DNA of 35,329 bases. Source: an uncultured candidate division Zixibacteria bacterium. GTDB lineage: Bacteria > Zixibacteria > MSB-5A5 > GN15 > PGXB01. The notes beneath the pieces were generated by a model, which was not told where the DNA came from, did not search any database, and was given only the letters and a program-made list of their open reading frames with translations. The stretch lies in the NCBI GenBank assembly GCA_937867135.1, contig CALMKK010000370.1, positions 1 to 35,329 of the forward strand, given 5' to 3'. Positions 13,744 through 32,851 of the stretch are shown piece by piece (the stretch's first letter is position 1; each line of letters opens with the position of its first letter). Both the position numbers and the translations under genes were made by a program.

Positions 13744-13757
13744 ATTATCCCACCTCC

Positions 13758-14627
13758 TTAACCTTTTCTCGCCTTGCGACGAGCCAGAATGAAACCGATA
13801 TTACCCATGATGATAAAAATAATGATTACCAGATGGGCATAAACCTGAATCCTCATGCCGTCAAGAGCCTCGCCGGGATTGTCGGCCAAGGCTTCGTACT
13901 GGGCCGCCCCCAGCAGACCGCCCATAATCCCGAAAACCTGCCCGGAATTAAGATAGGGATAATAATCGGCCGACATAACGCCGGTCAGACCCAGGGCCAG
14001 CGGGAAATTATAACGGCTCTGACCGTAGGTTATCCACATATCGCTGGAACTTCCCGATGATAATTCCACGACGCATTTGACTTGATCGTAGTTTCTAATG
14101 TTTCTCATCATCGGCAGAGAATCAAGCGGCTTGCCATAATAGTCGGTCGGGAACGGTATCCTGAAATCCTGACCCATGGCCAGAATAATCAGCGCCGGGT
14201 ACGGTTTGTAACCGAGAAAAGTATAATCGACGCCGTCTTCAATTTGTCTTCCTTTATAGAAGACGCCGTTATATGTCCCATCCTGTTTCACCGAATCTGC
14301 GACAGCCTTTATTACCTGATCCACCATGGCCGGCCCGTTTTGCGAGAGGGCCGAGAAAATGACTTTCAGGTGTTTCCGGAAAGCCTGCTCGACAATGGCG
14401 TAGAACATCGGGTGCAATTCTGCCAGAGACGAGGGATCATAATCGACTGCGACAAAAATGACATCATTCGGTTTTAAGGTATCAATAAAATTATAGACCG
14501 CCTTAACCTCCGGTGATTTATTAAGTTTAATCGTAAAAGGTATGGCATAGGTTATTACGCAGACCAGGGCCACAAAGAGGAAAACCCAACGGCGATCCAA
14601 GGTCATTAATCGATCAAATATATTCAT
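13758..14627 (-). CDS. Cassette copy A, subunit 3: membrane-anchored protein with DYDP-motif domain
   Basis: 'DVIFVAVDYDPSSLAELHPM', 'GVDYTFLGYKP', 'PLDSLPMMRNIRN', 'YYPYLNSGQVFGIMGGLLGAAQYEAL'; ATG 14627 with upstream GGAGGAAG. Confidence 0.85.
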   Translation of the reverse strand: MNIFDRLMTLDRRWVFLFVALVCVITYAIPFTIKLNKSPEVKAVYNFIDTLKPNDVIFVAVDYDPSSLAELHPMFYAIVEQAFRKHLKVIFSALSQNGPAMVDQVIKAVADSVKQDGTYNGVFYKGRQIEDGVDYTFLGYKPYPALIILAMGQDFRIPFPTDYYGKPLDSLPMMRNIRNYDQVKCVVELSSGSSSDMWITYGQSRYNFPLALGLTGVMSADYYPYLNSGQVFGIMGGLLGAAQYEALADNPGEALDGMRIQVYAHLVIIIFIIMGNIGFILARRKARKG

Positions 14628-14637
14628 AGCTTCCTCC

Positions 14638-15279
14638 TCAATCCCGGCCCAAGTAGGCGCGTTCAATTCCCAACATGACTTTCAAAGCGGTGGCAACCGC
14701 CCCGAGACCCAGGCCGATGATAATGGCCCGCTTGGCCGCCAGATTGGGGACGTTAAGAAGCCATGAAGTTGTCTTCTCAAGGTACACTCCGAAGGTGCCC
14801 AGATAAGGATTGAAACGGAGCATCACGATGAGCGCCGCCAGAAGCAGGACGGTGGCCAGCACGGATCGGGCGCGGAAGGCGCGATAAGCGGCCGATGCAA
14901 TATAGAACGCCAGGAGGGAGAACATGGTGGCCTGAATCGGAATTATGATGTACTGGAACAGGTGAATGAACATATAATTCTCGAGGCCCTCCTGCGTATA
15001 AAAATGCCGTCCGTAGTCAAAGCCAAAGACTATCATGGCCGCCAAACCGAGCAAAGTCGCAATAGGATATTGCCATCCCGGGACGCGCCGACGAATTTTC
15101 TCATATGATACTCTTATCAGCGACCAGATTCCCAGCGCCATCGCGAAGATACCGATGATAATAATCCATTTTAATAGGAATTCATTGGTATCCAGCGAAA
15201 AATCATTTGGAACAAAATACTGGACAATCATCACCAGCGCCAGGGTGAAAACCAGCATTAACGGAACTTGTCTTTTCAT
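14638..15279 (-). CDS. Cassette copy A, subunit 2: polytopic membrane protein of unknown function
   Basis: 'MKRQVPLMLVFTLALVMIVQYFVP', 'FYIASAAYRAFRARSVLATVLLLAALIVML', C-terminus 'IERAYLGRD'; start moved to 15279. Confidence 0.85.
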   Translation of the reverse strand: MKRQVPLMLVFTLALVMIVQYFVPNDFSLDTNEFLLKWIIIIGIFAMALGIWSLIRVSYEKIRRRVPGWQYPIATLLGLAAMIVFGFDYGRHFYTQEGLENYMFIHLFQYIIIPIQATMFSLLAFYIASAAYRAFRARSVLATVLLLAALIVMLRFNPYLGTFGVYLEKTTSWLLNVPNLAAKRAIIIGLGLGAVATALKVMLGIERAYLGRD

Positions 15280-15295
15280 GAATGGTTTCCTCCCT

Positions 15296-16525
15296 TTAAT
15301 TGCCGGCTTTAAAAAGTTCAAGGAACCAGTTCCAGCGGAATTGCGAGGCGATAATTCCCAGGATGGAAATAACGATAATCGCCGCTTTGCCGTAATCCTG
15401 CGCTTTCAGAGAACCGAGCAAAATCGGTTCGCGGCTCAGATAAGCCGAGGCGGCGTACAGCTCCTCGCCTATGAGAGTATAATCGCAGGCGACCACAAAA
15501 AACGGAATCTGCGCTACCTGATCAGTACCGGAAATCTGCACCGATCCGGCCAGGGCGCCGGTTTCGGCCAGCAGAAGCGATTCGGCGTAAAACGTTCCCA
15601 TATAGATATTGGTCGCCGGCAACTGACGGAGCATAGTGCCGTTTACGGCCGCGACATAGGCAAATTGATTGGAGGTTACATAGTAGACCATGTCGTCGTT
15701 ATAGGCGTCGGGACGTCCGGCATCGAGATAGGCCGTTCGAACCGTCTCCTGTGCGACCGTCATCACGATAGCATCATAGCAGGGAACAATCAGGCCGGTT
15801 TGATATTCCGCCACTTTCTTGGCCACCCGTCCGAGAATGGTGAAGGATGCAATAGTGGCGATATCGGCGGCTGTTCCCAGACCAAGGACATAGAGAATCG
15901 GCTTACCCATTTCGGTGGCACGGCCAATGGCTTCATCAACCGCTTCAATTCCGGCCAAGCGGCGCACAAACAGCTTGGCACCTTTTCGGGCCCTTCGTAT
16001 GAAGAAAATAGTTATGGCGGCAAAACAGAGCACAAAAACCAGGACCAGGGTTCGGCCAACATTATATAATTGTCCGACAGCCTTAACCGGTCCGATCACC
16101 GGAGAATCGGAATAGACATTGCTATCGGCAGTTATGGCCCGGACGATATAATAATAATCGGTGTCGTTCGGCATGAAATCCCGATCATCCGGCTTTCGTC
16201 CGCCCATATCCACATATTCACTGCTGCCGGAGGGAGCCATCCCTTCCCTGAGAACAAAGCCGCTATCGGGGAAGAAAGATCGAAGGAATTTGTATCCCAG
16301 GACCGTTTTTTGCCCGGCACCGTCATCAGCCGAAAGTGTCCATCGCAAAGTTAAGGAATGACCATTATCGTTCGGCGAATCCATGGCGGTAACATTGGTT
16401 GCCGGAGCCGGAGGCGAAATGGCCGGGATGGCGGATGCCTCCACTGTTTTGACACTATCCTGCGCCAATGCCGGGAGAGCCAAAGCCAGCAAGAGACATC
16501 CGAGAATCATTATTTTAAATTTCAT
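15296..16525 (-). CDS. Cassette copy A, subunit 1: signal peptide, FN3 domain, TM, DUF6754-like domain, TM
   Basis: ATG at 16525 gives signal peptide 'MKFKIMILGCLLLALALPALAQ'; FN3 'TLRWTLSADDGAGQKTVLGYKFLRS'; core 'AGIEAVDEAIGRATEMGKPILYVLG...CDYTLIGEELYAASAYLSREPILLGSLKAQD'. Confidence 0.85.
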   Translation of the reverse strand: MKFKIMILGCLLLALALPALAQDSVKTVEASAIPAISPPAPATNVTAMDSPNDNGHSLTLRWTLSADDGAGQKTVLGYKFLRSFFPDSGFVLREGMAPSGSSEYVDMGGRKPDDRDFMPNDTDYYYIVRAITADSNVYSDSPVIGPVKAVGQLYNVGRTLVLVFVLCFAAITIFFIRRARKGAKLFVRRLAGIEAVDEAIGRATEMGKPILYVLGLGTAADIATIASFTILGRVAKKVAEYQTGLIVPCYDAIVMTVAQETVRTAYLDAGRPDAYNDDMVYYVTSNQFAYVAAVNGTMLRQLPATNIYMGTFYAESLLLAETGALAGSVQISGTDQVAQIPFFVVACDYTLIGEELYAASAYLSREPILLGSLKAQDYGKAAIIVISILGIIASQFRWNWFLELFKAGN

Positions 16526-16554
16526 ACACACCTCGCAAAGTTGTATATGTGCAC

Positions 16555-17358
16555 TTATTTGACCAGTCCCAGCCAGTCGTGGAAAAGGAAAGTTAACCTT
16601 CCCACCAATAACGAAACACGCCCCATGACGGTGTAACCGAAGGAGGCGCCGAAAGTAATCATCAAAACCCAAATGCCCATCCGGGAGGCATAACCGAAAG
16701 CCCCTTTGTGTTCTTTGGAAAAGAAAAAATAAATCAGGCCGCAAAAGACACCGACAAAAATCACCCAATTGGAAAGGCTCATTGCGAATTGTCCGGTTAT
16801 CGACAACGAAAAATCGGAGAAAAACGGCCCAATCCCTCTCCAGTCGGTTACCAGAGGCACGAAAGTATTGCTCACCTGACTTATAAAATCGGAGCGAAGA
16901 TAACGAATCAAATTAAGCCCGGCGGTGGTCCCGACAATAAAAGCCAGCGACCAGCGCGACAACCAGCCCATCTTGGATGATAATCTCATAAGAAGAAAGA
17001 CGCCGAGAATAAGAGGAATAAAGAAAAAGATATCAAAACCTTTGTACGGAACGCCGAAATAGGTGCATAGGGACGGTGAAATCCGCGGCAAAAGATTTCC
17101 GACGAAGGTTGACCAGAATCCGACCGACATCCAGTAGGCGGCGGAAACTCCCACGAACAGGTGCTCGGCAAATTTGTAATAGGGATTGTCTTTATATAGA
17201 AAGGATAAAATCGAAAGAGTAAGAAAGGCGGCAACCGTTACCAGAAAAGCATCGGTCAAATTATGGCCCGCTTGCGATCCAATAATAATCCAGCTCAGGC
17301 CGAATATCAGGACCGCGGCGGCAAATATTACGATCGACCATATTCTGGAGTTATTCAT
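16555..17358 (-). CDS. Cassette copy B, subunit 4: polytopic membrane protein of unknown function
   Basis: 'FLYKDNPYYKFAEHLFVGVSAAYW', 'FFFSKEHKGAFGYASRMGIWVLMITFGASFGYTVMGRVSLLVGR'; extra N-terminal TM relative to copy C. Confidence 0.85.
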   Translation of the reverse strand: MNNSRIWSIVIFAAAVLIFGLSWIIIGSQAGHNLTDAFLVTVAAFLTLSILSFLYKDNPYYKFAEHLFVGVSAAYWMSVGFWSTFVGNLLPRISPSLCTYFGVPYKGFDIFFFIPLILGVFLLMRLSSKMGWLSRWSLAFIVGTTAGLNLIRYLRSDFISQVSNTFVPLVTDWRGIGPFFSDFSLSITGQFAMSLSNWVIFVGVFCGLIYFFFSKEHKGAFGYASRMGIWVLMITFGASFGYTVMGRVSLLVGRLTFLFHDWLGLVK

Positions 17359-17359
17359 C

Positions 17360-18271
17360 TCATTCTCCCCTCGATTTCAAAACGAAGTAAGAAATATTGC
17401 CGAAAATAATAAAAGCCATGATTACCAGATGCGCCATGGTCTGCGGTCCCATCATTTTTATTCCCGGCTGGGGGGTTTCGGCAAAACGGGGATATTTCCG
17501 TTTCAACTCCGATTCGTATTCGGCGGCTCCCTTAATTCCACCCAAAAGACCCATTAATTGATTGGGGTAATAGGGATAAAGCAGCGGGGCGGAAACGGCG
17601 GCGCAACCTCCCACTACCGGAATATGTCCCGGATCTCCGGCAAAAAGGACCCATTCTTTGACACCGGGCAGTCCACCGCCGACCGAAATCAAAAGATCCA
17701 TATCGCGCAGAGAACGGATGCCATTCATAATCGGCAGGGAATCGAGATTGATGCCATTGACATCGGTCAGATACATTTTTCGGATATCGGTAATAATGAC
17801 ATTGAGAACGCCGGTCCCGCCTGCTTTGTACCCCAAATTGACATAATCGACCCCGTTTTTCTTTTCAGGAAATTCCGTTTTTATTATTCGATCAATGGCC
17901 GTCGCCACCATCGGTTGTCCGGTCGCCCACAGGTTCATAAAATAGACGCGGTGTCCCTTGGCCATGGCGTGGCGCACGAAAGCATCGGTCATGGGGTTAA
18001 CTTCGGGAGCCATAGCCGGGTCGTAGTCAAAGGAAATCAAAATTTTCGAGCCGGGCGGAAGATTCTCAATTTTATCGAAAGCGGCTTTGACGATCGGGGT
18101 GGCTTTTTCGGAGAAGGAAATATTGAACAATATCGGGACCGCCACCGCCAAACCCATAAAGAGAAAAATGAAGCGCCGCTCCACATCGCGACCCCTGATA
18201 GATTTGATAAATAGGTACAATAATCCGGCGGCAATTATGGTGAGCGAAATGATAAGGCCCCATTTATTCAT
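17360..18271 (-). CDS. Cassette copy B, subunit 3: membrane-anchored protein with DYDP-motif domain
   Basis: 'SKILISFDYDPAMAPEVNPM', 'GVDYVNLGYKAGG', 'NLDSLPIMNGIRS', 'YPYYPNQLMGLLGGIKGAAEYE'. Confidence 0.85.
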   Translation of the reverse strand: MNKWGLIISLTIIAAGLLYLFIKSIRGRDVERRFIFLFMGLAVAVPILFNISFSEKATPIVKAAFDKIENLPPGSKILISFDYDPAMAPEVNPMTDAFVRHAMAKGHRVYFMNLWATGQPMVATAIDRIIKTEFPEKKNGVDYVNLGYKAGGTGVLNVIITDIRKMYLTDVNGINLDSLPIMNGIRSLRDMDLLISVGGGLPGVKEWVLFAGDPGHIPVVGGCAAVSAPLLYPYYPNQLMGLLGGIKGAAEYESELKRKYPRFAETPQPGIKMMGPQTMAHLVIMAFIIFGNISYFVLKSRGE

Positions 18272-18941
18272 TATCCACCCCCAGATAGGTCCGCTCGACA
18301 CCGAGAATCAGTCTTAAGGACATGGAAATAACACCGAGGGCGATACCGATCATAATGGCGCGCTGACCGGCCAGATTGGGGGATGACATAATCCAGATGG
18401 CCAGATTGGGAATCTGAAGCAATGAAAAAGATTCGGGAACCCAACCGGTGGCATAGACCCCGAGGGGGGTCCGTCCGAGAAGGATTATGAATGCCGCAAT
18501 CAGCAGGATGGTGGCTTCTTTATTTTTGGCTCGGAAAGCTCGATAGGAGGCCGAGGCCACATAAAATGCCAAAAGAGCATACATGGTCGAGCCGAGCGGA
18601 TAGAAAATATTATAATATAAAGTCTGGAATAATGAGCCGGTCGCGGCGACATCGCCGGTGATACCGTTCGGGTTGGCAATCTTAAACAGCCCCGCCGCCA
18701 GCATGACAATAAATCCGGTCAGAGTGACGGCGGAAAAGGCCCAATCCTTTTGGCGACGATAAATTTTGTTGCCATGGATGCGAATCAGATTGCCACCGCC
18801 CAGGAAGAAAGCAAAGACGGCAATAATATCGAAAAAGACGGAAAAATTCTCGCCGAGCCTCTCGGCCGGCGGGAAGAAGACCGAGACAATCAATACCGCG
18901 CCGACAATGAAGGTTATAATGACCGGGACCTGGCGTTTCAC
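18264..18941 (-). CDS. Cassette copy B, subunit 2: polytopic membrane protein of unknown function
   Basis: 'MKRQVPVIITFIVGAVLIVSVFFPP', 'NLIRIHGNKIYRR', 'FYVASASYRAFRAKNKEATILL', 'GVERTYLGVDNE'. Confidence 0.85.
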   Translation of the reverse strand: MKRQVPVIITFIVGAVLIVSVFFPPAERLGENFSVFFDIIAVFAFFLGGGNLIRIHGNKIYRRQKDWAFSAVTLTGFIVMLAAGLFKIANPNGITGDVAATGSLFQTLYYNIFYPLGSTMYALLAFYVASASYRAFRAKNKEATILLIAAFIILLGRTPLGVYATGWVPESFSLLQIPNLAIWIMSSPNLAGQRAIMIGIALGVISMSLRLILGVERTYLGVDNE

Positions 18942-18957
18942 GATATTTTATTCCTTT

Positions 18958-20163
18958 TCAATTTTGTACCGTAAAAATGTTGGAGAGAAATTGATGAATA
19001 TCCGTAAAGAACTGCCCGCCGCCCATCTGAGAAACGGTGGCGGCCAGTACGCCCAGGATTATGACAATCATGGCCAGAAGCTTTCCCATATCCTGGCCTT
19101 TGAGTGAACCCAATTGCTTCGGTTCATTCGAAAGGTACGCCGAGGCGGCAAAAAGCTCTTCCCCGATCAGGGTATAGTCACAGGCGGCGACAAAAAACGG
19201 CAACTGAGCCGGTTGAGCGGTTCCGGCGATCTGAATAGCCCCGATGGAATTTCCGGTCTCGGCCAAAATCAATGATTCGGCAAAGAAGGCTCCCAGATAG
19301 AAGCAGGTGGCCGGTTTTTGCCGCACCATGATACCATCGACCGCCGCCACATACCCGAACTGCTCGTCCGTAATATAATTTACCATATCATCGCTATAAG
19401 CATCGGGCCGTCCCGCGCCCATATAGGCTTCCCGAATAGTCTCGCGGGCGGTGGTCATCACCAACGAACGGGATACCGGCATATTTATGCGAATATCATA
19501 ATCGGCCACGACCTTAGCCACCCGGCCCAGAAGCGTGATTCCGGCGATGGTTTGTACATCATCCATATCATTAATGCCGGGAACGAAAAGAATGGGGCGT
19601 CCCATTTCGGTGGCGCGACCAATGGCCTCATCAATCGCCTCCAGTCCGGCAATTTTGCGGATAAATAATTTTTTCCCTCGCGTGGCGTGTGAAATGAAAA
19701 AGATGACCGAGCCGCAAAGGAAAAGACCGATAATGAAAAGATTGAGAAGATTCCAGTTAATCAGTTCCATGCGCGGTACAACGGCCGCCGAAATTTCGGA
19801 AAAATAGAGATGGCCGTCCGAGCTAGTCGCCACCTGATAGCGATAGCTTTGACCCTTATAGACTGATTTATCGCGATATGATGAGGTCCCGGCGCTGACA
19901 AAACCGATTGAGATAAAACTGTCAAGAGGATCTTCGGCGCGATAGATTTCGTACCCGCTGATGCTGCCATTTCCTTTATCGTCGGGCGATAACTGCCATG
20001 ACAGTTCAACCGCCTCGCCGCGGTCATATTTAAAATCATAGGCGACAACTTTCGAGGGAGGCGCAATTGACTCCTGTCCGCATAAATAAGCAGGCAGGAG
20101 CAATATTATAAAAAAGGATAATCCGAAACGGCAAAATGGTCGATTGGCTCCGCGCATTGTCAC
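18958..20163 (-). CDS. Cassette copy B, subunit 1: signal peptide, FN3 domain, TM, DUF6754-like domain, TM
   Basis: GTG at 20163 (or ATG 20157); 'FCRFGLSFFIILLLPAYLCGQ' signal; FN3 'ELSWQLSPDDKGNGSISGYEIYRA'; 'AGLEAIDEAIGRATEMGRPILFVPGINDMDDVQTIAGITLLGRVA'. Confidence 0.85.
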   Translation of the reverse strand: MTMRGANRPFCRFGLSFFIILLLPAYLCGQESIAPPSKVVAYDFKYDRGEAVELSWQLSPDDKGNGSISGYEIYRAEDPLDSFISIGFVSAGTSSYRDKSVYKGQSYRYQVATSSDGHLYFSEISAAVVPRMELINWNLLNLFIIGLFLCGSVIFFISHATRGKKLFIRKIAGLEAIDEAIGRATEMGRPILFVPGINDMDDVQTIAGITLLGRVAKVVADYDIRINMPVSRSLVMTTARETIREAYMGAGRPDAYSDDMVNYITDEQFGYVAAVDGIMVRQKPATCFYLGAFFAESLILAETGNSIGAIQIAGTAQPAQLPFFVAACDYTLIGEELFAASAYLSNEPKQLGSLKGQDMGKLLAMIVIILGVLAATVSQMGGGQFFTDIHQFLSNIFTVQN

Positions 20164-20807
20164 CTGATCAGCCTCAGCCAGTCCCCGAAGATGAATTCCA
20201 TGCGGCCGATCAGAAGCGACATTCGGCTCATGACGGTATATCCAAAAGAGGCTCCGAAGGTAATCATAATGGTCCAGATGCCAATTCGGGCCGCCCCACC
20301 AAAAACGCCTTTATGTTCTTTGCTGAAAAAGAAATATACCAATCCCGTAAAGGTTCCGCCGGCGATGACCAGATTGCCGATAGTATCATATAAAGAGGCT
20401 TCAAATATCGGCTGGCCGAATTTAGTGCTGAAAAGAGGCGCCAGAGTGCTTTGGACCTGAAGCATGACGTTGGAGGAAAAATAATTTATGATATAAAGAC
20501 CGGCTGTCGCCCCGACCACAAAAGCCAGCGGCCAGCGGGAGATCCAACCGATCGGCGGAACCAGCCTCAGGAGCATCATAAATCCGAGAACGGCTCCGAC
20601 TAACAGCATGTAGTGGGGATCCGGGCTGGTTACCCCCCTCCAGAAAAGACCGAGTATATTATCATAAAATAGGGTGACAAACCAGTACCCCGCCGAGATT
20701 CCGACAAAAATCGATTCACAGACTTTATACCAGGGATTATCTCTATAAAGGAAGGAGATAATTCCCAAAGTGAGAAAGGCGGCAACCCAGATTCCAAACG
20801 TATCCAT
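20160..20807 (-). CDS. Cassette copy C, subunit 4: polytopic membrane protein of unknown function
   Basis: ATG at 20807 (MDTFGIWVAAFLTLGIISFLYRDNPWYKVCESIFVGISAGYW); 'FFFSKEHKGVFGGAARIGIWTIMITFGASFGYTVMSRMSLLIGR'. Confidence 0.85.
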   Translation of the reverse strand: MDTFGIWVAAFLTLGIISFLYRDNPWYKVCESIFVGISAGYWFVTLFYDNILGLFWRGVTSPDPHYMLLVGAVLGFMMLLRLVPPIGWISRWPLAFVVGATAGLYIINYFSSNVMLQVQSTLAPLFSTKFGQPIFEASLYDTIGNLVIAGGTFTGLVYFFFSKEHKGVFGGAARIGIWTIMITFGASFGYTVMSRMSLLIGRMEFIFGDWLRLIR

Positions 20808-20808
20808 G

Positions 20809-21810
20809 TTATTTCTGCTCCTTTCTCGCTTTATTCTTTTCACCAAGGAAAAAGGCGGCATTTCCGATCAGGATAAAAGCGATTACAATGACATGCGAGA
20901 ATGACTGGGGCAGCATGTAGAAGGTCGCGGTTCCTTCTTTGCCGGTGGCCCGTTCAAATTCGGCAGCGCCGCTCAAACCACCTAAAAGCCCCTTCAATTG
21001 ACCGGCGCGAAGGTACGGGTACATGCCGGTAGCCTGAACGCCGGTGTTTCCCGCGCCCAATTTTAAGCCGTAGCGATCGACGGCCACCTGAATCCATTCC
21101 ACCGTTCCCGGATAGCCGGCCGAAAGATTAAAGGAATAATCGATATTGGAAAAATTCCGGACATCGCGCAGAAGCGGAATCGAATCATATGGAATCCCTC
21201 TGGTATCGCGGGGAAACATCGTCCGAAAATCGGTTCCCATGCGTTGGATGACAAATTCATTTCCGGTTTGAAAGCCGAGATCCACGTAATCTATTCCCCG
21301 CTCCAGTTTTTTCTTCACAATCGAGGAGTCGGCCAGAGCAATCTGAAGGGCCAATTCCGCTTGTTGCGGGCCCTGAGGCCAAAGTCCCATAATAATTATC
21401 TTCAAATCGTGTTCCAGGCAAAGGCGGAAGTATGATTCCGCCATCGGCTGTAGTTCCGGAGCCGAGGCCGGGTCGTAGTCAAATGAAACCAGAACCTTTG
21501 AGCCGGGTTTCAATTGCGCCGTGGAATCATATACGGTTTGCACTTCCGGTGAAACGCGGATCGGCTGATGGATTTTCATGAAAAACGGCAGAACCACCGC
21601 AATGCCGACAAAGAGAAACACAATGCGTCGTCCCACGAAATGGCCGTTAATGGTACGAATAAATATAAATATAAGAGCCAGTAAAATCAGTCCGATAATC
21701 AGGTAAGAAACGGTCGTGGAAAAAACAATCGGTTTAGGCACCAGCAGGAAAATCATCGCCACAATGACAATCAAGGCGCCAAAGAGAAGGAGATCCTGTT
21801 TCATAATCAA
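20809..21810 (-). CDS. Cassette copy C, subunit 3: membrane-anchored protein with DYDP-motif domain
   Basis: 'SKVLVSFDYDPASAPELQPM', 'GIDYVDLGFQTG', 'PYDSIPLLRDVRN', 'YPYLRAGQLKGLLGGLSGAAEFE'. Confidence 0.85.
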   Translation of the reverse strand: MIMKQDLLLFGALIVIVAMIFLLVPKPIVFSTTVSYLIIGLILLALIFIFIRTINGHFVGRRIVFLFVGIAVVLPFFMKIHQPIRVSPEVQTVYDSTAQLKPGSKVLVSFDYDPASAPELQPMAESYFRLCLEHDLKIIIMGLWPQGPQQAELALQIALADSSIVKKKLERGIDYVDLGFQTGNEFVIQRMGTDFRTMFPRDTRGIPYDSIPLLRDVRNFSNIDYSFNLSAGYPGTVEWIQVAVDRYGLKLGAGNTGVQATGMYPYLRAGQLKGLLGGLSGAAEFERATGKEGTATFYMLPQSFSHVIVIAFILIGNAAFFLGEKNKARKEQK

Positions 21811-22460
21811 TCACCCCCCAGATAGGACCGTTCAATGCCGAGGATAATGCGCAGGGAGGTCGAGACAATGCCCAGAGCGATGCCAATCATGATGGCCCGC
21901 TGTCCAGCAGAGTTGATAAAACCCATTATCCAGATGGTAATCTTGGAAGGCATCAGGCTCTCGGGCAGATGAATAAAAGAACCGATGGCATCCCCCACCG
22001 GGACCCGTCCAATCATAACGAAGAAAGCGGCCAGAAGAAGCAAAGTGGCTTCCAGATTTCTGGCGCGGAAGGCGCGATAAGACGCCGACGCGACGAAAAA
22101 TGCCAGAAGCGCAAACATCGTCGCCGAAAGAGGGGAATAGACCCAAGTATACAGCCAATCAAAACCGGTTCCCGGATCGCGGAACTGAGAACCGCCGGCA
22201 AAACCGATTGTTGCGATTAATAGAAAAGAAGCGATAATGATTGCGGCGTAGCCCCAACCGGAGCGACGGCGATAAATCTTATCGGCGGAAATGCGCATCA
22301 AGTTCAACGCTCCGAGCCAGATGGCACAGGCTCCAATAATGGCGAACCAATCGGAAAACCACGAATTGAATTGATTGAACGGCGCATGGGGAATAAAATA
22401 TTGAATGACAAAAATTACTCCCACAACGGCCGTAATGATTAAAGGAACTTCTCGTCTCAT
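21807..22460 (-). CDS. Cassette copy C, subunit 2: polytopic membrane protein of unknown function
   Basis: ATG at 22460 preceded by GGGAGGAT; 'MRREVPLIITAVVGVIFVIQYFIP', 'FFVASASYRAFRARNLEATLLLLAAFFVMIGR', 'GIERSYLGGD'. Confidence 0.85.
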   Translation of the reverse strand: MRREVPLIITAVVGVIFVIQYFIPHAPFNQFNSWFSDWFAIIGACAIWLGALNLMRISADKIYRRRSGWGYAAIIIASFLLIATIGFAGGSQFRDPGTGFDWLYTWVYSPLSATMFALLAFFVASASYRAFRARNLEATLLLLAAFFVMIGRVPVGDAIGSFIHLPESLMPSKITIWIMGFINSAGQRAIMIGIALGIVSTSLRIILGIERSYLGGD

Positions 22461-22473
22461 ATTTTTATCCTCC

Positions 22474-23703
22474 CTACCCAATCACCTTGAAATAGTTCGA
22501 CAGCTGGAAAAGATTGAAAGATTCCAGCAGGATACCGACGATAATCGCCACCAGAATAATCGCCTTGCCAATATCCTGTCCTTTTAGAGAACCGAGCAAT
22601 TTCGGTTCACGGGATAAATAGGCCGAGGCGGCAAAAAGCTCTTCGCCGATGAGAGTATAATCGCAGGCGGCCACAAAAAAGGGCAACTGGGAAGGTTGAC
22701 CGGTTCCGGCAATCTGAATGGCGCCGATCGAATTTCCGGTTTCCGACAAAATCAACGACTCGGCGTAAAAATTACCCATAAAAAATATGGTGGCCGGCTT
22801 TTCACGCACGACCATACCATCAATACCGGCCGCATATCCGAATTGATCGTCAGTCAGGTAATGAACCTGCTCATCCCGGAAGGAATCGGGACGGCCGGCC
22901 TTGGTATAAGCCTCTTTGACAATTTCCTTGGCCGTGACCATAACCAGCGAACGACTGACCGGGACTTCAATCCAGGTTTCGTATTCGGCCGCCAATTGTG
23001 CCACCCGGCCCAAAATAGTGATGCCCGCAATAGTTTGGACATTATCCATATCGGAAGTGCCGGGGATAAAGAAAATCTTTTTGCCCATTTCCGTGGCTCG
23101 GCCGACCGCCTCATCGACGGCGTCAAGACCGGCAATTTTACGAATAAACAATTTCTTCCCTGATTTGGCCTGGTTGATATAAAAAATAATAAGACCGCAT
23201 AAGATTATCATGCCGATAAAGACATTGAGGCGACGCATGTCGAACCATTGCGGTTTTGATTCGACCGGCCCGAATATATCTGTTTCGCTGGAAACCTGCC
23301 AGAGCAGTTGCCCGGCTTGACGGGAAGAATTGACGGCCATTATCTTATAATAATACGGAATATTGTCGGCGGCATCATTATCGATATATTGTTGTGAGCC
23401 GGCCGGGACCTCAGCCACTTTCGCAAAACCGCTCTCTTTATTTTGAGAGCGTAAAATCTTATAGGCCGTAACCTTGCCGCCGGGGTGATCATCGATGGAT
23501 GAATCCCAAGTAATTATAACGGCATGGCCGGCATCATTGGGATTATCCATAACAACCAAATTCCTGGGCGCGACCGGCGTAACATCGGGCGGAGGGGTGT
23601 TAAATAGGCCGGCCGTTGAGGAATCAACGGGGGGTTGTGCGGCGGAAAGGGAAGCCCAAAGAAGCAGGGTGAGGCTGAACAGAATCGTGCGGTTTGTAAT
23701 CAC
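22474..23703 (-). CDS. Cassette copy C, subunit 1: signal peptide, FN3 domain, TM, DUF6754-like domain, TM
   Basis: FN3 'VIITWDSSIDDHPGGKVTAYKILRS'; core 'AGLDAVDEAVGRATEMGKKIFFIPGTSDMDNVQTIAGITILGRVA'. The ORF track starts at ATG 23748, but that codon lies in a hairpin without a Shine-Dalgarno; GTG 23703 gives 'MITNRTILFSLTLLLWASLSAAQ'. Confidence 0.8.
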   Translation of the reverse strand: MITNRTILFSLTLLLWASLSAAQPPVDSSTAGLFNTPPPDVTPVAPRNLVVMDNPNDAGHAVIITWDSSIDDHPGGKVTAYKILRSQNKESGFAKVAEVPAGSQQYIDNDAADNIPYYYKIMAVNSSRQAGQLLWQVSSETDIFGPVESKPQWFDMRRLNVFIGMIILCGLIIFYINQAKSGKKLFIRKIAGLDAVDEAVGRATEMGKKIFFIPGTSDMDNVQTIAGITILGRVAQLAAEYETWIEVPVSRSLVMVTAKEIVKEAYTKAGRPDSFRDEQVHYLTDDQFGYAAGIDGMVVREKPATIFFMGNFYAESLILSETGNSIGAIQIAGTGQPSQLPFFVAACDYTLIGEELFAASAYLSREPKLLGSLKGQDIGKAIILVAIIVGILLESFNLFQLSNYFKVIG

Positions 23704-23716
23704 GCTTCCCACTTTC

Positions 23717-23755
23717 AAAAAAAATCTCACAGACGAATTGAACGTCATCTGTGAG
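23717..23755 (-). promoter_or_regulatory. Hairpin followed by U8: intrinsic terminator or attenuator at the head of the cassette operon
   Basis: Minus strand CTCACAGA-TGACGTTCAATTCG-TCTGTGAG-A-TTTTTTTT; arms 23748-23755 and 23726-23733; T8 from A8 at 23717-23724. Confidence 0.65.
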
Positions 23756-23993
23756 GTTGGTTCAAAATATCCTGTTTTCGCGATATGTATATTTCATATT
23801 TTCATATATTGATGGCGATTAATAAAAAGCCTGCCGCCACCTCATATAAATCGGTTGTGAAATTTAACGAGATGTTCCTCAAGTGTCAAGTCCAAAATGC
23901 CGGACAGCATTCGACTGCCGATTGGCAAATAAATCAGGAGCCGCGGATTTACCGCTATTTAGATTTAACGCAGAAGGGAAATAGGCGGTTGAT

Positions 23994-24416
23994 TTAACGA
24001 GAATCGGCTTTGGATTGAACCATTTGAAAGCTTTTTTGACTGGATAAGAAACGCCAATAGGCCCGTTCGATAATCAGGGAGACTTCCGGGCCCTTGAAAG
24101 GTTTGGTGATATACTCATCGGCCCCGAGACTCAGCGCTTCTTTCACGGAACCGGCGTCGCCGTAACCGGTCATCATAATTACGCCGACATCGGGGAACGA
24201 TTTTTTCACGACCTGAAGTAATTCAAAACCGTCCATTTCCGGCATTCTTATATCGGAAACAACCAGATCGACATGACTGGATTTCAAATATTCCAGCGCC
24301 TCGCGTCCGCTTCCGACCGCTTTTATGCTGTATCCCTTGCGTTGGAGGAGCTGTTCGAGAACGCTCCGCACCAGAGGCTCATCGTCGACTATCAGAATTG
24401 TTACGCTGGTTTTCAT
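23994..24416 (-). CDS. Single-domain response regulator (CheY-like)
   Basis: 'ILIVDDEP', 'LVVSDIRMPEMDGFELL', 'VIMMTGYG', 'EYITKPF' receiver motifs. Confidence 0.9.
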   Translation of the reverse strand: MKTSVTILIVDDEPLVRSVLEQLLQRKGYSIKAVGSGREALEYLKSSHVDLVVSDIRMPEMDGFELLQVVKKSFPDVGVIMMTGYGDAGSVKEALSLGADEYITKPFKGPEVSLIIERAYWRFLSSQKSFQMVQSKADSR

Positions 24417-24844
24417 CTGGTTCCACCGGTGGTACTTTTTTGCAGTGCTAATGTCACCTCATCCACAAAATCTTCAAGCAGGACCGGCTTGTAAAGCAAT
24501 GAGGCGGCCCCTCTGATTCCGGCCTGATTAATCAGGCGCTCGGTGGCGTTACCGGTAATGATAATAACCGGCAGATGCGGCTTGATTTCCTTTATTTTGG
24601 CGACCGCTTCCACCCCGGCCATTTCCGGCATGATTAAATCCATCGTAACCAGATCGTAATTATTGGCTCTTACCTTATTAATGGCGTCCAAACCATTGGC
24701 GGCCAAATCCACTTCGACCGACGGCGTGATGGTACAGAATTCTTTGAAGACATCCTGAACCCTGGGTTCATCGTCGACTATCAAGATGCGAAAGGAGCGC
24801 CCCCGTTGTCGGGCCATTTCTTCTATTTTATTCAATTTTATCAT
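24413..24844 (-). CDS. Single-domain response regulator
   Basis: 'RILIVDDEPRVQDVFKEF', 'LVTMDLIMPEMAGVEAV', 'VIIITGNA', 'LLYKPV'; ATG at 24844 preferred. Confidence 0.88.
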   Translation of the reverse strand: MIKLNKIEEMARQRGRSFRILIVDDEPRVQDVFKEFCTITPSVEVDLAANGLDAINKVRANNYDLVTMDLIMPEMAGVEAVAKIKEIKPHLPVIIITGNATERLINQAGIRGAASLLYKPVLLEDFVDEVTLALQKSTTGGTR

Positions 24845-24885
24845 TATCAATCCTAACCCTTTTCCGCCGGGTCGCAAAACGGCGG

Positions 24886-25272
24886 CTATTTATAGTTATC
24901 GACCTTTCCCTTCCTTTTTTTAATATCGGCCACAGTTTTTAAAATACTGCGGCTGAGGCTCAAAATCTCGTTGAGCGAGGTTTCAATACGATCCAGCTTG
25001 TCGCTTTCCGAGGGGGGTGAATAGACCAATTTATCTTCATTCCGGAAGGAACGCATAATCGACGCCACTTCCCGGATTACCTCCACCGATCCGTTGATCA
25101 GCCGGGTAAATTCCGGCTCCAGGTGGGCCAATTCGGCCGCCTGGCTCTTATTGCGGGCGAGGCTGATGGCCAGATTAAGGGCCAGCATCTTTACCTGATT
25201 GGCCAAATCATCAACCTGAATCGACCAATCGTCGACGCTTATTTCCGGTTTTTTATCATCCGGTTGGGTCAT
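24886..25272 (-). CDS. Small cytosolic protein resembling the MCP signalling hairpin tip
   Basis: 'VDDLANQVKMLALNLAISLARNKSQAAELAHLEPEFTRLINGSVEVIREVASIM' parallels the MCP tip 'I..IA.QTNLLALNAAIEAAR...EVR.LA..S..A..EI'; no TM or HAMP. Confidence 0.65.
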   Translation of the reverse strand: MTQPDDKKPEISVDDWSIQVDDLANQVKMLALNLAISLARNKSQAAELAHLEPEFTRLINGSVEVIREVASIMRSFRNEDKLVYSPPSESDKLDRIETSLNEILSLSRSILKTVADIKKRKGKVDNYK

Positions 25273-25622
25273 ACTTTCACCAATTCTTTGATTTTTTCTT
25301 TCAGCGGAACAATATCGGAGGACTTCACAACGTAAGCATCGGCTACCCAGGTATGGAAATCGGATTTATAAGTCGAATAAGCGGAGTTGAGGATAACAGG
25401 AAGAGCCGGGTATTGTTCTTTTATCTTCTTAAGGACTTCCAGTCCGGTTGTTTCCTCCAATTCGATATCAAGCACCACCAAATCCAGGCCGATTTCCGCC
25501 GCAATCTTGAGGGCCTCATCGGCCGATGCCGCTGTAACCACCTCATATCCTTCGCGGCTCAGGTAGTCCTTGTATAATTTTCGGATATGGTCTTCATCAT
25601 CGACAATCAGCAATCTATGCAT
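25269..25622 (-). CDS. Single-domain response regulator
   Basis: 'HRLLIVDDEDHIRKLYKDYLSREGYEV', 'LVVLDIELEETTGLEVL', 'YVVKSSDI'. Confidence 0.88.
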   Translation of the reverse strand: MHRLLIVDDEDHIRKLYKDYLSREGYEVVTAASADEALKIAAEIGLDLVVLDIELEETTGLEVLKKIKEQYPALPVILNSAYSTYKSDFHTWVADAYVVKSSDIVPLKEKIKELVKV

Positions 25623-27387
25623 CCTGCCCTCCTTTATATTGAGGCAACTCTATATATATTCTCGGCAATCCTTCCTCGGAACTTTCCAATCCATAATTAC
25701 CGCCGTGATAACGAAGGGTTTCGCCGGCCACAATGATTGACAGTTTCTGCGTGCCTGTTGAATTGCCAAAGACTTGTTTCATCGTTTTTAAAACCTTGGC
25801 GCGCGACTCTTCGGTCCCGTTAAACCCGATGGTAAATTTTATCATCCCTTCGTGGATGCCGGTGGACAATTCCATCAGACATTCATCGGTCATCTCATCC
25901 AGGGCCGCCAGCAGAAATTGCAGAAGGGCATGTTGTAGTTGATCGGGGTTACCCCAGACCGCCAGTTTTTCGCTGGCCAGCCTCATAAACGGCGTCCGAT
26001 GGCGGTTACGGGTTTTGGAGGCCAACAGGCCGCTGGTTTGGACCACCAAACGGTTGAAGTCTATTTCCTGGGTTTTGGTCCGGCTGGCTTTCGAGAAATC
26101 AAGGACATGATGCAATACCGTTTCGGCCCGTTTGGTTTCGGAAATAATGATATTGAGGTATTCGGTATTGCTGTCATTTCCCCCCGATGAAAGCATGAGA
26201 TTGGCAAAGCCCCCGATAACGGTCAGGGGATTCCGCAATTCATGAGCAATTGATGAAGTCAATTCGCCGATGACGGACATTTTTTCGACTCGGATAATCT
26301 GCTCCTGCGATTCGGCCAATTGTTTATTCATTTCCTCCAATTCCTCAGTATGCTCGAGGAGATTATCGTAAAGCCGGGAGCGTTCAATGGCGACGGCCGT
26401 ATGGTTGGCGAAAATCTGAAGCAATTCCACTTCGGAGGAAATGATCCTTTTGCCGGTGATGCGGTTGTCGGCGGCGATGATGCCTAATATCTTGCCTTTC
26501 CCCACGATTGGAACCACGGCCAGATTTTCGGAATTCAGGCGGGTCATAATATCCCGTGAAGTCGAGGAAAGATCATCTTTGCCATGAATATTAATACCGC
26601 ATCGTTCTCGGGCCGCCCGGCTGAAAAAGGAGTCATCGGTTAAGGATACTCTCCACCCGGCTATGAATGAACTGAGAGTGTAATTTGAGGAATTCTCCCG
26701 CTCGCTGTAGTCGTCGAGCAATTCTTTCAAGGTTTTTTTCTGGCTGTCGAGACGCGACCAAATTTGTCCGGCCTCATCGGGATTTCTTGGCCCGACCGCC
26801 AGTTGCCCTTCGGCATATTCCCCGGATTCATTGGCGAGAAACAGGAAGGCGCGATTGAACCCGAGCCCCTGATTGGCGGTCACCCCGGTTAATATTATTT
26901 TTAAAACTTCATCCAAATCGGCCGTTGAAGACAAAGCCTCCGATACCTGCGACAAAATTGACAATTCCAGAATCGCTTCTTCGAGGTCGGCCTTTCGTTT
27001 GGAAATATCGGTCACATCCTGGACGATTCCCAGGACGCCGGCAATTTCGCCGGTGGGCATTCGATAAGGACTGCCGAAGACATTGAGGATGGCAAAATGC
27101 CCCAGGCGATTGGTGCAGCGATGTTCTTTTTTCTGGAAGGTCTGACCGTTTAGTATGGCATTGAAGCAGTCGCTGAGATCGCAATTAATGACGGACTCGA
27201 TATCCTGTACGGGCGCCCCGCACGCCTCATCGGCTCTTCCGAACCCGATGATGGCGGCGGCCGAAGCGTTGAAATATTCGATCACGCCGCACCGGTTAAT
27301 CATAAAGAATCCCAGCGGGGAATTGTCAAAATGGCTTTTCAAAAAAGTAACATCGATTTCCGTCGACGGAGTCCTGACATATTCCAT
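25615..27387 (-). CDS. PAS-GAF-HisKA sensor protein with degenerate HATPase domain
   Basis: PAS 'HFDNSPLGFFMINRCGVIEYFNASAAAIIGF'; GAF ending 'NHTAVAIERSRLYDNL'; H-box 'SSIAHELRNPLTVIGGF'; CA-like C-terminus without N, G1 and G2 box residues. Confidence 0.85.
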   Translation of the reverse strand: MEYVRTPSTEIDVTFLKSHFDNSPLGFFMINRCGVIEYFNASAAAIIGFGRADEACGAPVQDIESVINCDLSDCFNAILNGQTFQKKEHRCTNRLGHFAILNVFGSPYRMPTGEIAGVLGIVQDVTDISKRKADLEEAILELSILSQVSEALSSTADLDEVLKIILTGVTANQGLGFNRAFLFLANESGEYAEGQLAVGPRNPDEAGQIWSRLDSQKKTLKELLDDYSERENSSNYTLSSFIAGWRVSLTDDSFFSRAARERCGINIHGKDDLSSTSRDIMTRLNSENLAVVPIVGKGKILGIIAADNRITGKRIISSEVELLQIFANHTAVAIERSRLYDNLLEHTEELEEMNKQLAESQEQIIRVEKMSVIGELTSSIAHELRNPLTVIGGFANLMLSSGGNDSNTEYLNIIISETKRAETVLHHVLDFSKASRTKTQEIDFNRLVVQTSGLLASKTRNRHRTPFMRLASEKLAVWGNPDQLQHALLQFLLAALDEMTDECLMELSTGIHEGMIKFTIGFNGTEESRAKVLKTMKQVFGNSTGTQKLSIIVAGETLRYHGGNYGLESSEEGLPRIYIELPQYKGGQDA

Positions 27388-27391
27388 GGTT

Positions 27392-28267
27392 TTAAACTCC
27401 CGCCGAAGACTTTTGCAGATTTATCATTTTTATCTTGTTGCCGCTGCCGATATATGTTTCCGATACCAGGTCCTCGATTTTCAACAGTCGGCGATTGATT
27501 TGGGCGATTTTCAGCGATTCCTCTTCCACTGTTTTCAGGCGTTCCACTACTTTTTTATCCAAATCCTTATTCGTAAACAGCAGACATTGAATATTGCCGA
27601 CTATTACCGAAAGCGGATTATTGATTTCATGGTTTATTGAAACGGCCAATTGGCGGACCGCTTCCAGTTTTTCGCTGTCAATCCGGCTTTTCTGAACGGC
27701 CTTTAACTCCTTTTGCATTTTCAGCAAAATTTGATTTTTCCTCTCCAGTTCCCTCTGATAAAGAAGGCGTTCAATGGAGACGGCCAATTGGTCGCCGACC
27801 ACAAGCAGCAATTTCTGATCCTTATCTTGGAAAAAACCGGGCCGGCTGTGGGCGTAACTGACCGTCCCGATAATTTTATCTTCCACCAGAAGCGGAATTA
27901 TAAGAAAGGAGCTTTTGGCCTCTTCCGGCGGTCGATCCTGATTTTTCAGATTGGATAGAAGAATCGGCTTCTTCTGCTGGGCGGCCCAGGCGTTTAGGCC
28001 GCTGCCGGCATCGAACTGCACAAAATTAATCGGATCGATCTTCGGACCAAGGGTGACAACTTCCTCCAATTCCTTTTTCTTCCGGTTGAAAAGGTAAAGG
28101 GTTGATGATTCAAACGGAATGACGGTCTGAATTACTTCCAGAATCCGCTGAAAGGTTGCCTTAAGCGGCGGCTCCTTGCGTAATATCGCCGCAATTTCAT
28201 TGACGAGATTGATTTTGGTCCAGAACCGACTGACCGGCTCATCGTTCTTGTCATTCTTGCGAGTCAA
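27392..28267 (-). CDS. GAF-DHp protein (histidine-kinase-like, ends before an ATPase domain)
   Basis: GAF 'VIPFESSTLYLFNRKKKEL...SVSYAHSRPGFF'-type; H-box 'LAVSINHEINNPLSVIVGN'; stop ~75 aa after the His. Confidence 0.85.
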   Translation of the reverse strand: MTRKNDKNDEPVSRFWTKINLVNEIAAILRKEPPLKATFQRILEVIQTVIPFESSTLYLFNRKKKELEEVVTLGPKIDPINFVQFDAGSGLNAWAAQQKKPILLSNLKNQDRPPEEAKSSFLIIPLLVEDKIIGTVSYAHSRPGFFQDKDQKLLLVVGDQLAVSIERLLYQRELERKNQILLKMQKELKAVQKSRIDSEKLEAVRQLAVSINHEINNPLSVIVGNIQCLLFTNKDLDKKVVERLKTVEEESLKIAQINRRLLKIEDLVSETYIGSGNKIKMINLQKSSAGV

Positions 28268-28856
28268 AATGATTTCCTCTGGTTGCGGCTTTTATATCTT
28301 CAAATAAAGCCACCGCGGCCTTTTCTTCGAGCGCATCAAAAAGTGAAATTTTCTCATCGGCCGGGAGTTTCAGGGCCGGATCGGTCGGCTCATCATCGAT
28401 CAACTGCCATTGATCCGATCCCTTCATTTCCCAGTAAAATCGGTCCATCTTAGCCACCCGCCTTTTAGCCACATCGACAATGCGCAATTGCCCGGTAATA
28501 ATTCCATAAACCTGGTAGCGGTAGACCGCCAGCGGAACAACGGTTATTTTTTTCTGGATCAAATCAAGTTTTTCAACCGTGATATCGATCAGGAAGCGGG
28601 CCTTCTGAGCCTTCCCGCGCGTTATAACCTGTTCCAGATTTTCGAATTTTGCAGGTTTGGCGGCCTGAATATTAACGGCGAGGGGCTGATGATTAAGCGT
28701 CGAGAGTTTGTATTCCAATCTCTCGGCTAAATGGGAATCGGCGTAGGGACAAGCGGCCGGGCTAATATTGACGATGACCGAATCCTGAGCCCGGACGGCT
28801 AATCCGCCGACCAGCAACATGCTGGACAATATAATTGTTTTCACGCGATGATTCAT
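28251..28856 (-). CDS. Hypothetical exported protein
   Basis: Signal peptide 'MNHRVKTIILSSMLLVGGLAVRAQ'; no recognised domain. Confidence 0.7.
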   Translation of the reverse strand: MNHRVKTIILSSMLLVGGLAVRAQDSVIVNISPAACPYADSHLAERLEYKLSTLNHQPLAVNIQAAKPAKFENLEQVITRGKAQKARFLIDITVEKLDLIQKKITVVPLAVYRYQVYGIITGQLRIVDVAKRRVAKMDRFYWEMKGSDQWQLIDDEPTDPALKLPADEKISLFDALEEKAAVALFEDIKAATRGNHFDSQE

Positions 28857-29378
28857 CTATCGATCTTCCCCGGTTACTCTTTTGCGATAGACATACTTAT
28901 TCAGCATTTTCTTTATTCCTTCATCGAAAGAGGTCAGATTGCGCGGCAAAACTTCCATTTCAGCCGCGCTGAAAATATCGCGAAGATATTCTTTCGAGAC
29001 AAATTCAACGCCGACCAGCCATTCCTTGTCGTCGGCATCGACCCTTTTGACCATACCCACCACATTATCTATAACCTCGATATCCTGGAGGGAAAATCGA
29101 AGCAAAATTACGGCGCCTTCTTCGACCGGTTCGGCGGCGGCAATCAGCACGCCTCCGGCGGATATGTTGAGCACGGCGCCGTTATAGGATTGGCCGTCGC
29201 CGTCGGGCCAGAAGCCGCCGGCTGAGTTCTTTAGCAGCGCGAAGCGGACCGGTTCGGCAACCTGCAGACGAACGTACCGTCGCTGCTTATCGCTATGCAC
29301 ATTAAAAGGCGGTTTTAAATTAATGACATCCTTGTCAGTCGCCATCTCGGAAATTACTTTTACGCGGGACGGGTTCAT
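28857..29378 (-). CDS. PilZ domain protein
   Basis: 'RRYVRLQVAEPVRF...VLNISAGGVLI' matches RxxxR and (D/N)xSxxG. Confidence 0.85.
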   Translation of the reverse strand: MNPSRVKVISEMATDKDVINLKPPFNVHSDKQRRYVRLQVAEPVRFALLKNSAGGFWPDGDGQSYNGAVLNISAGGVLIAAAEPVEEGAVILLRFSLQDIEVIDNVVGMVKRVDADDKEWLVGVEFVSKEYLRDIFSAAEMEVLPRNLTSFDEGIKKMLNKYVYRKRVTGEDR

Positions 29379-30133
29379 ACAATTTTCCCTTCTATGGAAA
29401 CAATTTTATTATATTTTTCTATTAAATATTCGGTCAGAACGGAGCGGCCGGTTTCATCGAAGTCGAACATCTTAAGCGGCAAATTGCGAATAAGATTTTT
29501 GGGGAGTTTTTCCGCGCAATTTTCTCTTATGACAAATTCCACGCCGACTCGATTTAGATTATCTTCGTGGCGCTGGCGGTGGCGGATCCGTCCCACGAGA
29601 AGGCCCGGCAGATCAATTTCGGATAAGCCCAGATGGAGGACCACAAATCCCTCCGGGCCGATAAAGGTCGGAATTTTGACCAGCATACCGCCGCCGCCGA
29701 TATTAATGGTCGATGTTTCCAGCCATTTGAGTTTATTGAGGCGGATAAATCCGATATTAGTTTCATCGAAAAAGGTCAGTCGGACCTGATGTTCCAGATC
29801 AAGGCGCAGGAATTGCCGCTGCAATTCGGGACATACTTCGCCCGCTATAGGTATTTGCAGGCGACCGATTCGAGGAATCGCCAGCACCGATCTGAATTTA
29901 ACAGGTTCCCCTTTATAGTCGAATATCACTTCGATCCTTTGACCGGCAACCAGTTGATCGATACGGCCGCAGGAACCGGATCGATCTATGATTAATCGAT
30001 TATCGGTCAGGGCCGTAACGCGTGTCGTCAGTAAGTTCGACGGGAATTGTTCGGTGCGGAGATGAATTTCCCGACCCACCAGCCGGGAATAATCGATTTG
30101 GGCGCTGCTGATGACAACGGTTTCGCTGTTCAT
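29375..30133 (-). CDS. YcgR-like protein with PilZ domain
   Basis: N-terminal YcgR-like beta domain then 'RQFLRLDLEHQVRLTFF...TINIGGGGMLV'. Confidence 0.8.
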   Translation of the reverse strand: MNSETVVISSAQIDYSRLVGREIHLRTEQFPSNLLTTRVTALTDNRLIIDRSGSCGRIDQLVAGQRIEVIFDYKGEPVKFRSVLAIPRIGRLQIPIAGEVCPELQRQFLRLDLEHQVRLTFFDETNIGFIRLNKLKWLETSTINIGGGGMLVKIPTFIGPEGFVVLHLGLSEIDLPGLLVGRIRHRQRHEDNLNRVGVEFVIRENCAEKLPKNLIRNLPLKMFDFDETGRSVLTEYLIEKYNKIVSIEGKIV

Positions 30134-30882
30134 TATATCAGCCCTTTCCGGCGATCTTTTATCTGCTGCTCGAAAATAAATTTCACGATTTTGTTCTGAA
30201 TACTGTAATTGAAGGACTTCACCTGACTGGGCAAAAGATCAATTTCATTTTGACTGAAATATTTAAGCAAATTGCGATCGAGAATGAATTCCACCCCGGC
30301 AAATTTGTCTTCATCCATGCGCACGATGCGGCAACAGATAGCCGCCACCAGGCGCGGAATTCCCAGAATTTCGTATTTTGAAACCTTTATAAGAATAAGT
30401 TCACTCTTGGACAAATCATTTCCGGCTTTCATCAACAGGCCGCCCGCCGAAACATTGGCGGTGTGGGAATCTTTCCAAATAAGAGTGCTCATACCGCTCT
30501 CCAAAGACACACTTTTGAGCGGTGCATATTTCAAATCCAGACGCATATCAAGCCGCACGAATTGCCGCCTCTGGACGCGTTCCACGCCGCCGATATTGTA
30601 GAGTTGAATCATTTTGTCGTTCGAATTGGGAATCGGCCGCAATCGGGCCGAGAAACGATAAAGAGCGTCGGGCCGCATGAAATGCACATAGACAAAGGCA
30701 TTGGCCGTCAATAGCTTGTTACCGCCGATAAAATCCGGTTTGGTTATGAGCACGCCCTCGCTGTTGATATCCTCAACCCGTGAGACATATACTCCCTGCT
30801 CGCTCCCTTCACCGACCACTACCTCAATTCTCTCCCAGGGCTTGAGGAGAAAAGTATCAGTGCTTTGTTTAGTGCTCACCAT
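30133..30882 (-). CDS. YcgR-like flagellar brake protein with PilZ domain
   Basis: 'WERIEVVVGEGSEQGVYVSRVEDINSEGVLITKP' then 'RRQFVRLDMRLDLKYAPL...TANVSAGGLLM'. Confidence 0.85.
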   Translation of the reverse strand: MVSTKQSTDTFLLKPWERIEVVVGEGSEQGVYVSRVEDINSEGVLITKPDFIGGNKLLTANAFVYVHFMRPDALYRFSARLRPIPNSNDKMIQLYNIGGVERVQRRQFVRLDMRLDLKYAPLKSVSLESGMSTLIWKDSHTANVSAGGLLMKAGNDLSKSELILIKVSKYEILGIPRLVAAICCRIVRMDEDKFAGVEFILDRNLLKYFSQNEIDLLPSQVKSFNYSIQNKIVKFIFEQQIKDRRKGLI

Positions 30883-30890
30883 AATCGTCT

Positions 30891-32075
30891 TTAAACCGTC
30901 TTGGATGCCGCCAGATTGCTCCGCCCCTGCTCAATCGCCAATTCCAGAATTTTCCGGGCCATGGCGGTCCGACTCTGGTCGCCTTTATGTTTATAAATAA
31001 ATTCCTGACCGTTCCTGATGGTGGTATTGAAATATTCCCGCGCCAAATCAAAATTGCCGATTCGCCGTGAGAGTTCGGCAATCAGATACGAGGCCTGTAT
31101 CTGCTGATTTCCCTCGCCGATATCCCGGCCGTCTTCATAGGCACTTTTATAGTATTTCACCGCCAGTTCCAGGGCCTCTCGTTCGTTGCGCGGAATGCCG
31201 CTCCATTTTTCGGCCAGATGGCCCAAAAAATCATGGAAGGTCGGGAATTCATGAAATCCGAGCGGAACATCGCCATCAGCCGAGCCGACGGCCAGGCATT
31301 TGTGTTCCCGAAAGATGTCTTGCACGGCATCGATTTTCGAATCGGACAGCGATAATAATTCCCGAAGTGCGTTCAGCTCGGCTTCGTACTTATCGCGGAT
31401 TGGGTAAAGAGACGACTTTATTTCAGCCGAGATTTTTTCATCCTCGAATTGGGAAGCGGCGCATTTCTCAAAATCAAAAGATTTTACTTTAAGGTTGTAT
31501 ACGGATTGGCGCAAATTCTCGAGAATATCGCCCATTTCGGTAAGATGTCCCTTTAAGGCCTGCTGATTGGTGTTCTCTCCGGATGTCATCTCCCGGAAGA
31601 TCCATGCAATCCGCAGGTAGAAGCGCCCCAGATCAAGATCGACCTGTTTATCGTTGAGAGTCTCATCGACAACGGCCAGAATGATTTTCAATATGGCCGT
31701 CTCATTGGGATAGCGATGCGGGGCAAGTCGATCGCCGATAATTTTTAAAATAGAATCGGGCTGGGCCAGCATATCCAAATGCTTTTCCTTAACCGTCTTA
31801 AGGCGATAGGTCTTGAAATACTGATCCTCTTTCCATTCCTTGAAGCTGTTGGTGAATTCCCGGGTATAATGGCAACTGGTACAGGAAGCGGTAAAGAACA
31901 GAAGCGGATTATAGGCTTGATATCTGGGATTGCGCCATTTTCGTCCGGTGGGACAGAAATCGGTGTCCCGATCGGATTCCGTATAGGCGCCCATTCTGAG
32001 CGTTTCATATTCGTTTATGGTCTTGCAGATTGGACACTCGACCTTGGTTAGAAATACGGGTGTTTCCGATGCCAT
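30891..32075 (-). CDS. DUF2225 family protein (zinc-binding Cys pairs)
   Basis: 'VECPICKTINEYETLRMGAYTESDRDTDFCPT...YNPLLFFTASCTSCHYTREF' typical of DUF2225. Confidence 0.8.
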   Translation of the reverse strand: MASETPVFLTKVECPICKTINEYETLRMGAYTESDRDTDFCPTGRKWRNPRYQAYNPLLFFTASCTSCHYTREFTNSFKEWKEDQYFKTYRLKTVKEKHLDMLAQPDSILKIIGDRLAPHRYPNETAILKIILAVVDETLNDKQVDLDLGRFYLRIAWIFREMTSGENTNQQALKGHLTEMGDILENLRQSVYNLKVKSFDFEKCAASQFEDEKISAEIKSSLYPIRDKYEAELNALRELLSLSDSKIDAVQDIFREHKCLAVGSADGDVPLGFHEFPTFHDFLGHLAEKWSGIPRNEREALELAVKYYKSAYEDGRDIGEGNQQIQASYLIAELSRRIGNFDLAREYFNTTIRNGQEFIYKHKGDQSRTAMARKILELAIEQGRSNLAASKTV

Positions 32076-32515: not shown

Positions 32516-32533
32516 TTTATGTTTATCCTTTCC

Positions 32534-32836: not shown

Positions 32837-32851
32837 GACGCTGTTCCTTTT

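Follow-up and report, generated by a model that had tools for sequence, protein, structure and literature searches.

Trp-type leader-peptide attenuators carry a short leader open reading frame (ORF) and a terminator before the first gene, while processive antitermination by the NusG paralogues RfaH, LoaP, and UpxY pairs a long operon with a leader element. The leader of a 12-gene DUF6754 operon in candidate division Zixibacteria resembled these systems and transcriptional riboswitches in part: (i) as in trp-type attenuators, it contained ATG-initiated short ORFs and a terminator before the first gene, but it lacked a ribosome-binding site, a run of regulatory codons, and a conserved mutually exclusive hairpin; (ii) as in transcriptional riboswitches (Rfam), a leader terminator preceded a membrane-protein operon, but the window gave no match at gathering score in Rfam 15, and the leader was poorly conserved apart from a TATGAA box; and (iii) as in NusG-paralogue systems, a long operon was combined with a leader element, but every family genome gave at most one NusG match and thus had no paralogue. 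Premature termination in Escherichia coli 5′ UTRs is reported to have been found by 3′-end mapping (PMC7815308). Compared to 5′-leader attenuators of this type, the Zixibacteria locus displayed the same order of promoter, leader, intrinsic terminator just before the first start codon, and long operon, but its element was limited to one Zixibacteria family, and no leader peptide, ligand, or antiterminator was found for it.

The following features, all on the minus strand, were recognized in the window (the whole 35,329-nt stretch of DNA analyzed):

23861 to 23889, minus strand: conserved sigma70-like promoter predicted by motif match (TTGACA at 23889-23884, 17-nt spacer, and TAAATT at 23866-23861)
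23793 to 23798, minus strand: conserved TATGAA box in the leader, here 43 nt 5′ of the hairpin
23757 to 23765, minus strand: TTGAACCAA, immediately 5′ of the hairpin (family alignments and upstream-ORF survey)
23755 to 23726, minus strand: terminator hairpin with an 11-bp stem and an 8-nt loop (sequence and family conservation)
23724 to 23717, minus strand: U8 tract of the terminator, TTTTTTTT, with the T-run invariant in family alignments
22474 to 23703, minus strand: first cassette gene, coding for a DUF6754 protein with signal peptide and FN3 domain (Pfam PF20539, E=6.6e-128)
12949 to 23703, minus strand: 12-gene cassette, three times DUF6754 plus three membrane proteins (packed ORFs and three DUF6754 matches)
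12899 to 12920, minus strand: strong intrinsic terminator 3′ of the cassette, GCCCCGCCTTTGGAAGCGGGGC plus T6, a natural 3′ end

The hairpin arms CTCACAGATGA (23755-23745) and TCGTCTGTGAG (23736-23726) paired with each other, including one T.G (G.U) pair, and enclosed the loop CGTTCAAT (23744-23737, minus strand). The element had the shape of an intrinsic terminator, namely a stable hairpin and then a U-run, with a single A (23725) intervening. The sequence-only reading had described this hairpin plus T8 with the correct sequence and coordinates, but the 8-bp arms it gave proved to be 11 pairs long. The stem was the longest among 17 terminator-like sites in the 20-30 kb part of the window, the local folding energy was -15.3 to -16.8 kcal/mol, and when the leader was dinucleotide-shuffled 5000 times, a stem of 10 or more pairs plus T8 never arose. 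On the d'Aubenton-Carafa score, the leader hairpins were mostly weak (negative in eight of the 10 scored); d was about -11 here versus about +38 for the operon-end terminator, making partial, adjustable termination at the leader the natural reading.

ATG 23748, the start codon annotated for the first cassette gene, was located within the 5′ arm of the hairpin and had no Shine-Dalgarno sequence before it; its G was the G of a stem pair changed from G-C to A-T in the same-genus relative G001, which had ATA at this position. GTG 23703 was in frame and yielded a signal peptide directly, and in most family members the start codon lay just past the U-run. GTG 23703 is probably the preferred start, because ATG 23748 is not conserved and lacks a Shine-Dalgarno sequence and most family starts follow the U-run; the earlier doubt about ATG 23748 was thus supported. 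The encoded protein displayed the layout signal peptide, FN3 domain, membrane helix, and cytoplasmic domain; its predicted structure (AF2/Foldseek; mean pLDDT 70) matched a known fold for the FN3 domain only, and the literature search found no paper on DUF6754.

The predicted promoter, with an estimated transcription start at about 23853, followed the upstream gene and preceded the hairpin by 134 nt, and the terminator accordingly lay between the putative promoter and the first gene. The family form was CTTGACA...TTARATT with small changes, and most order members had TTGACT...TAGATT or TACATT. With a predicted promoter conserved across the order upstream of the hairpin, cassette-bound transcripts should cross the terminator; since GTG 23703 follows the U-run after a mere 13 nt, transcripts from this promoter would have no way around it. 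The interval between promoter and terminator was poorly conserved except for the TATGAA box, which was found about 37-46 nt 5′ of the hairpin in 10 of the 12 family leaders (TATGA sought 34-50 nt before the hairpin; mean 0.65 and maximum 4 in 500 shuffles); a leader-peptide start and a binding site are its candidate roles. GAAC and then CCTC were common to most family copies in the alignments, and a 6-codon ORF from TTG 23765, starting within TTGAACCAA, was present only in this genus. In the leader ORF survey, Shine-Dalgarno sequences were lacking, and neither the codons nor the stop position were conserved. The 5′ arm paired with the rest of the leader, as expected of an antiterminator, no more than in shuffles across the 12 leaders, and 10 of them were predicted to adopt the terminator as the default fold. 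Relaxed Rfam searches of the relatives gave three chance-level matches below threshold (E 2.8-3.2), and the literature search on Zixibacteria leaders and terminators found nothing.

Comparison with related genomes, proposed in the sequence-only reading as a check on the hairpin, showed that of the 13 family genomes with the first cassette gene, 11 had the hairpin ahead of it, whatever lay upstream. A T-tailed hairpin of -11 to -17 kcal/mol ended 19-31 nt before the start in 10/12 family leaders, with 0-1 such hairpins in shuffles and one on the reverse strand; the eleventh family hairpin, beyond these leaders, was in G005. The covariance model R1, built from a 91-nt part of the leader, detected one clear copy each in 12 of the 15 family genomes, whereas 66 further order members gave none. 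The twelfth copy was in G009, a genome outside the model, and it had the same promoter along with the TATGAA box on its 5′ side and a GTG start with signal peptide, followed by the contig end, on its 3′ side. The hairpin was absent from two genus-g2 genomes that contained the first cassette gene, and G003 had neither an R1 copy nor a detectable first cassette gene. In a structural alignment made by hand, and thus biased in favor of the structure, 93% of cells paired and seven pairs were changed on both sides, among them the G-C to A-T change between the two same-genus genomes; in an unfitted MAFFT alignment, covariation was not above shuffles, because the inner stems of three rows were misaligned. 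With the former alignment structure-biased and the latter null, the weight falls on the independent detection of the hairpin in each genome.

Beyond the family, distant Zixibacteria such as L063, L066, L070, L071, L073, L074, L076, L077, and L090 had T-tailed hairpins with different arms at a similar place. Among 78 non-family leaders, 18 T-tailed hairpins versus 4-11 in shuffles passed a loose criterion (a modest excess), and seven versus 0.5 passed a strict one (a clearer excess). Most f4 members had the cassette and the same promoter, with a long leader that contained no terminator; the absence of the hairpin from the two g2 genomes and nearly all f4 members, despite their cassettes and long leaders, indicates that the operon can do without it. 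In f4 (order relatives, e.g., L014 and L016-L031), a TTG start for the first cassette gene was noted by eye. Leader terminators of this kind were uncommon in 400 kb sampled from G001, the complete genome of the same genus: 10 of 126 long upstream gaps passed loosely, and only three of these 10 had a promoter upstream. CTCAC...GTGAG plus T5, searched as a regulon pattern in 15 genomes, had one match elsewhere (in G003), and this idea was rejected.

Several other genes were observed next to the leader or cassette. A small cold-shock-domain-like gene was directly upstream of the leader in G004 (L004) and G006 (L007) and, with a broken frame, in G009 (L179); a cold-shock-domain antiterminator was considered from this neighbor, and it was set aside because being neighbors in a handful of genomes does not demonstrate a function. 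A 376-aa protein was the upstream neighbor of the cassette in the distant relatives L063, L066, L070, L073, and L077, and in L063, L066, and L077 a protein that by eye looked similar to MutL/GlmL-type ATPases came before it, which suggests a functional link.

The sequence-only reading had left two roles for the hairpin, i.e., ending the upstream signaling operon or acting as an attenuator for all 12 genes. The signaling operon (23994-35316) encoded two kinases, three response-regulator domains, three PilZ proteins, a DUF2225 protein, and a sigma factor, and in this genus its end was 239 nt upstream on the same strand, as expected if the hairpin were its ordinary terminator and the cassette started further on. 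However, this operon adjoined the hairpin only in the same genus (G001) and in none of the other family genomes with upstream sequence; a T-tailed hairpin still preceded the cassette in G011 (L012), where the upstream gene was a divergent RRM-protein gene, and also in L071, L074, and L076, distant relatives likewise with a divergent upstream gene. Sequence comparison thus shows the hairpin, in its fixed place from promoter to start, to be independent of the upstream genes; moreover, the conserved promoter intervenes, and the 13 nt between U8 and GTG 23703 are too short for another promoter. A role as signaling-operon terminator is therefore largely refuted and extremely improbable. The unit of promoter, leader of about 135 nt, and terminator, present in single copy per genome, is also of the right size for a gene of a stable small RNA with incidental read-through into the cassette; this is very unlikely, however, given that the element was always directly 5′ of the same gene, was little conserved outside the short boxes, and was followed by a cassette without any other promoter.

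A passive partial terminator, or a hairpin stabilizing the 5′ end of the mRNA, would set a fixed level or give protection without regulation; it agrees with the weak terminator scores, the terminator as default fold, and the failure to find a cis antiterminator or an Rfam match, but a constant leak would hardly explain the TATGAA box at a fixed distance and the conservation of the CCTC/GAGG arms, and stabilization needs no U-run, yet the U-run is conserved. Such a passive role was considered unlikely. In leader-peptide attenuation, TATGAA would contain the start codon of a short leader ORF, and translation of this ORF would either melt the terminator or allow it to form. An ATG plus an AAA, AAC, or AAG codon was indeed at a similar place in most leaders, and the ORF ended a few bases 5′ of the hairpin in G000, G001, G004, and G009; against this, there was no Shine-Dalgarno sequence, conserved peptide, or codon run, the stops were widely scattered, and G007 had no ATG at the box, leaving this mechanism quite improbable.

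The reading best matching these comparisons was that the 12-gene DUF6754 operon has, in its 5′ leader, a transcription attenuator specific to this lineage. This is probable rather than certain, and the support comes from the position and conservation of the hairpin, the weak terminator scores, and the second leader box; the earlier suggestion of an attenuator controlling all 12 genes was upheld to this extent. RNA polymerase would start about 150 nt ahead of the gene, at the conserved promoter, and would synthesize a leader of about 100 nt, including the TATGAA box, before the hairpin; part of the transcripts would end at the hairpin plus U8, the operon would be transcribed only by polymerases reading through, and translation would begin at GTG 23703, 13 nt past the U-run. 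Read-through would be regulated; since no conserved cis antiterminator was found, the likeliest regulator would be a ribosome or an RNA-binding protein that recognizes conserved sequence in the leader. A further, tentative possibility, held at well under even chance, is that the TATGAA box and the CCTC-arm terminator represent a new family of regulated attenuators, recognized jointly by an RNA-binding factor or ribosome signal that turns on the entire DUF6754 operon, with the unrelated hairpins at this place in distant Zixibacteria as independent versions of such control.

The cassette ORFs overlapped or nearly abutted, and the leader would control the whole cassette as far as its natural 3′ end. 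The three-fold repeated four-gene set was composed of DUF6754 and two membrane proteins flanking a 302-333 aa soluble-domain protein, and it was found Zixibacteria-wide. The mechanically assigned TTG start of the third DUF6754 gene (15296-16768) overlapped the preceding gene by about 200 bases, and its true start is probably ATG near 16525.

The element is a real, conserved, family-specific leader terminator and most likely an attenuator, and the kind of control it represents is already known. It would provide a concrete control point for a large membrane operon conserved in Zixibacteria, the R1 model finds it in new genomes, and the start of the first cassette gene is corrected to the preferred GTG 23703. 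If the TATGAA box is indeed a recognition site, it would point to a new leader-RNA regulator.
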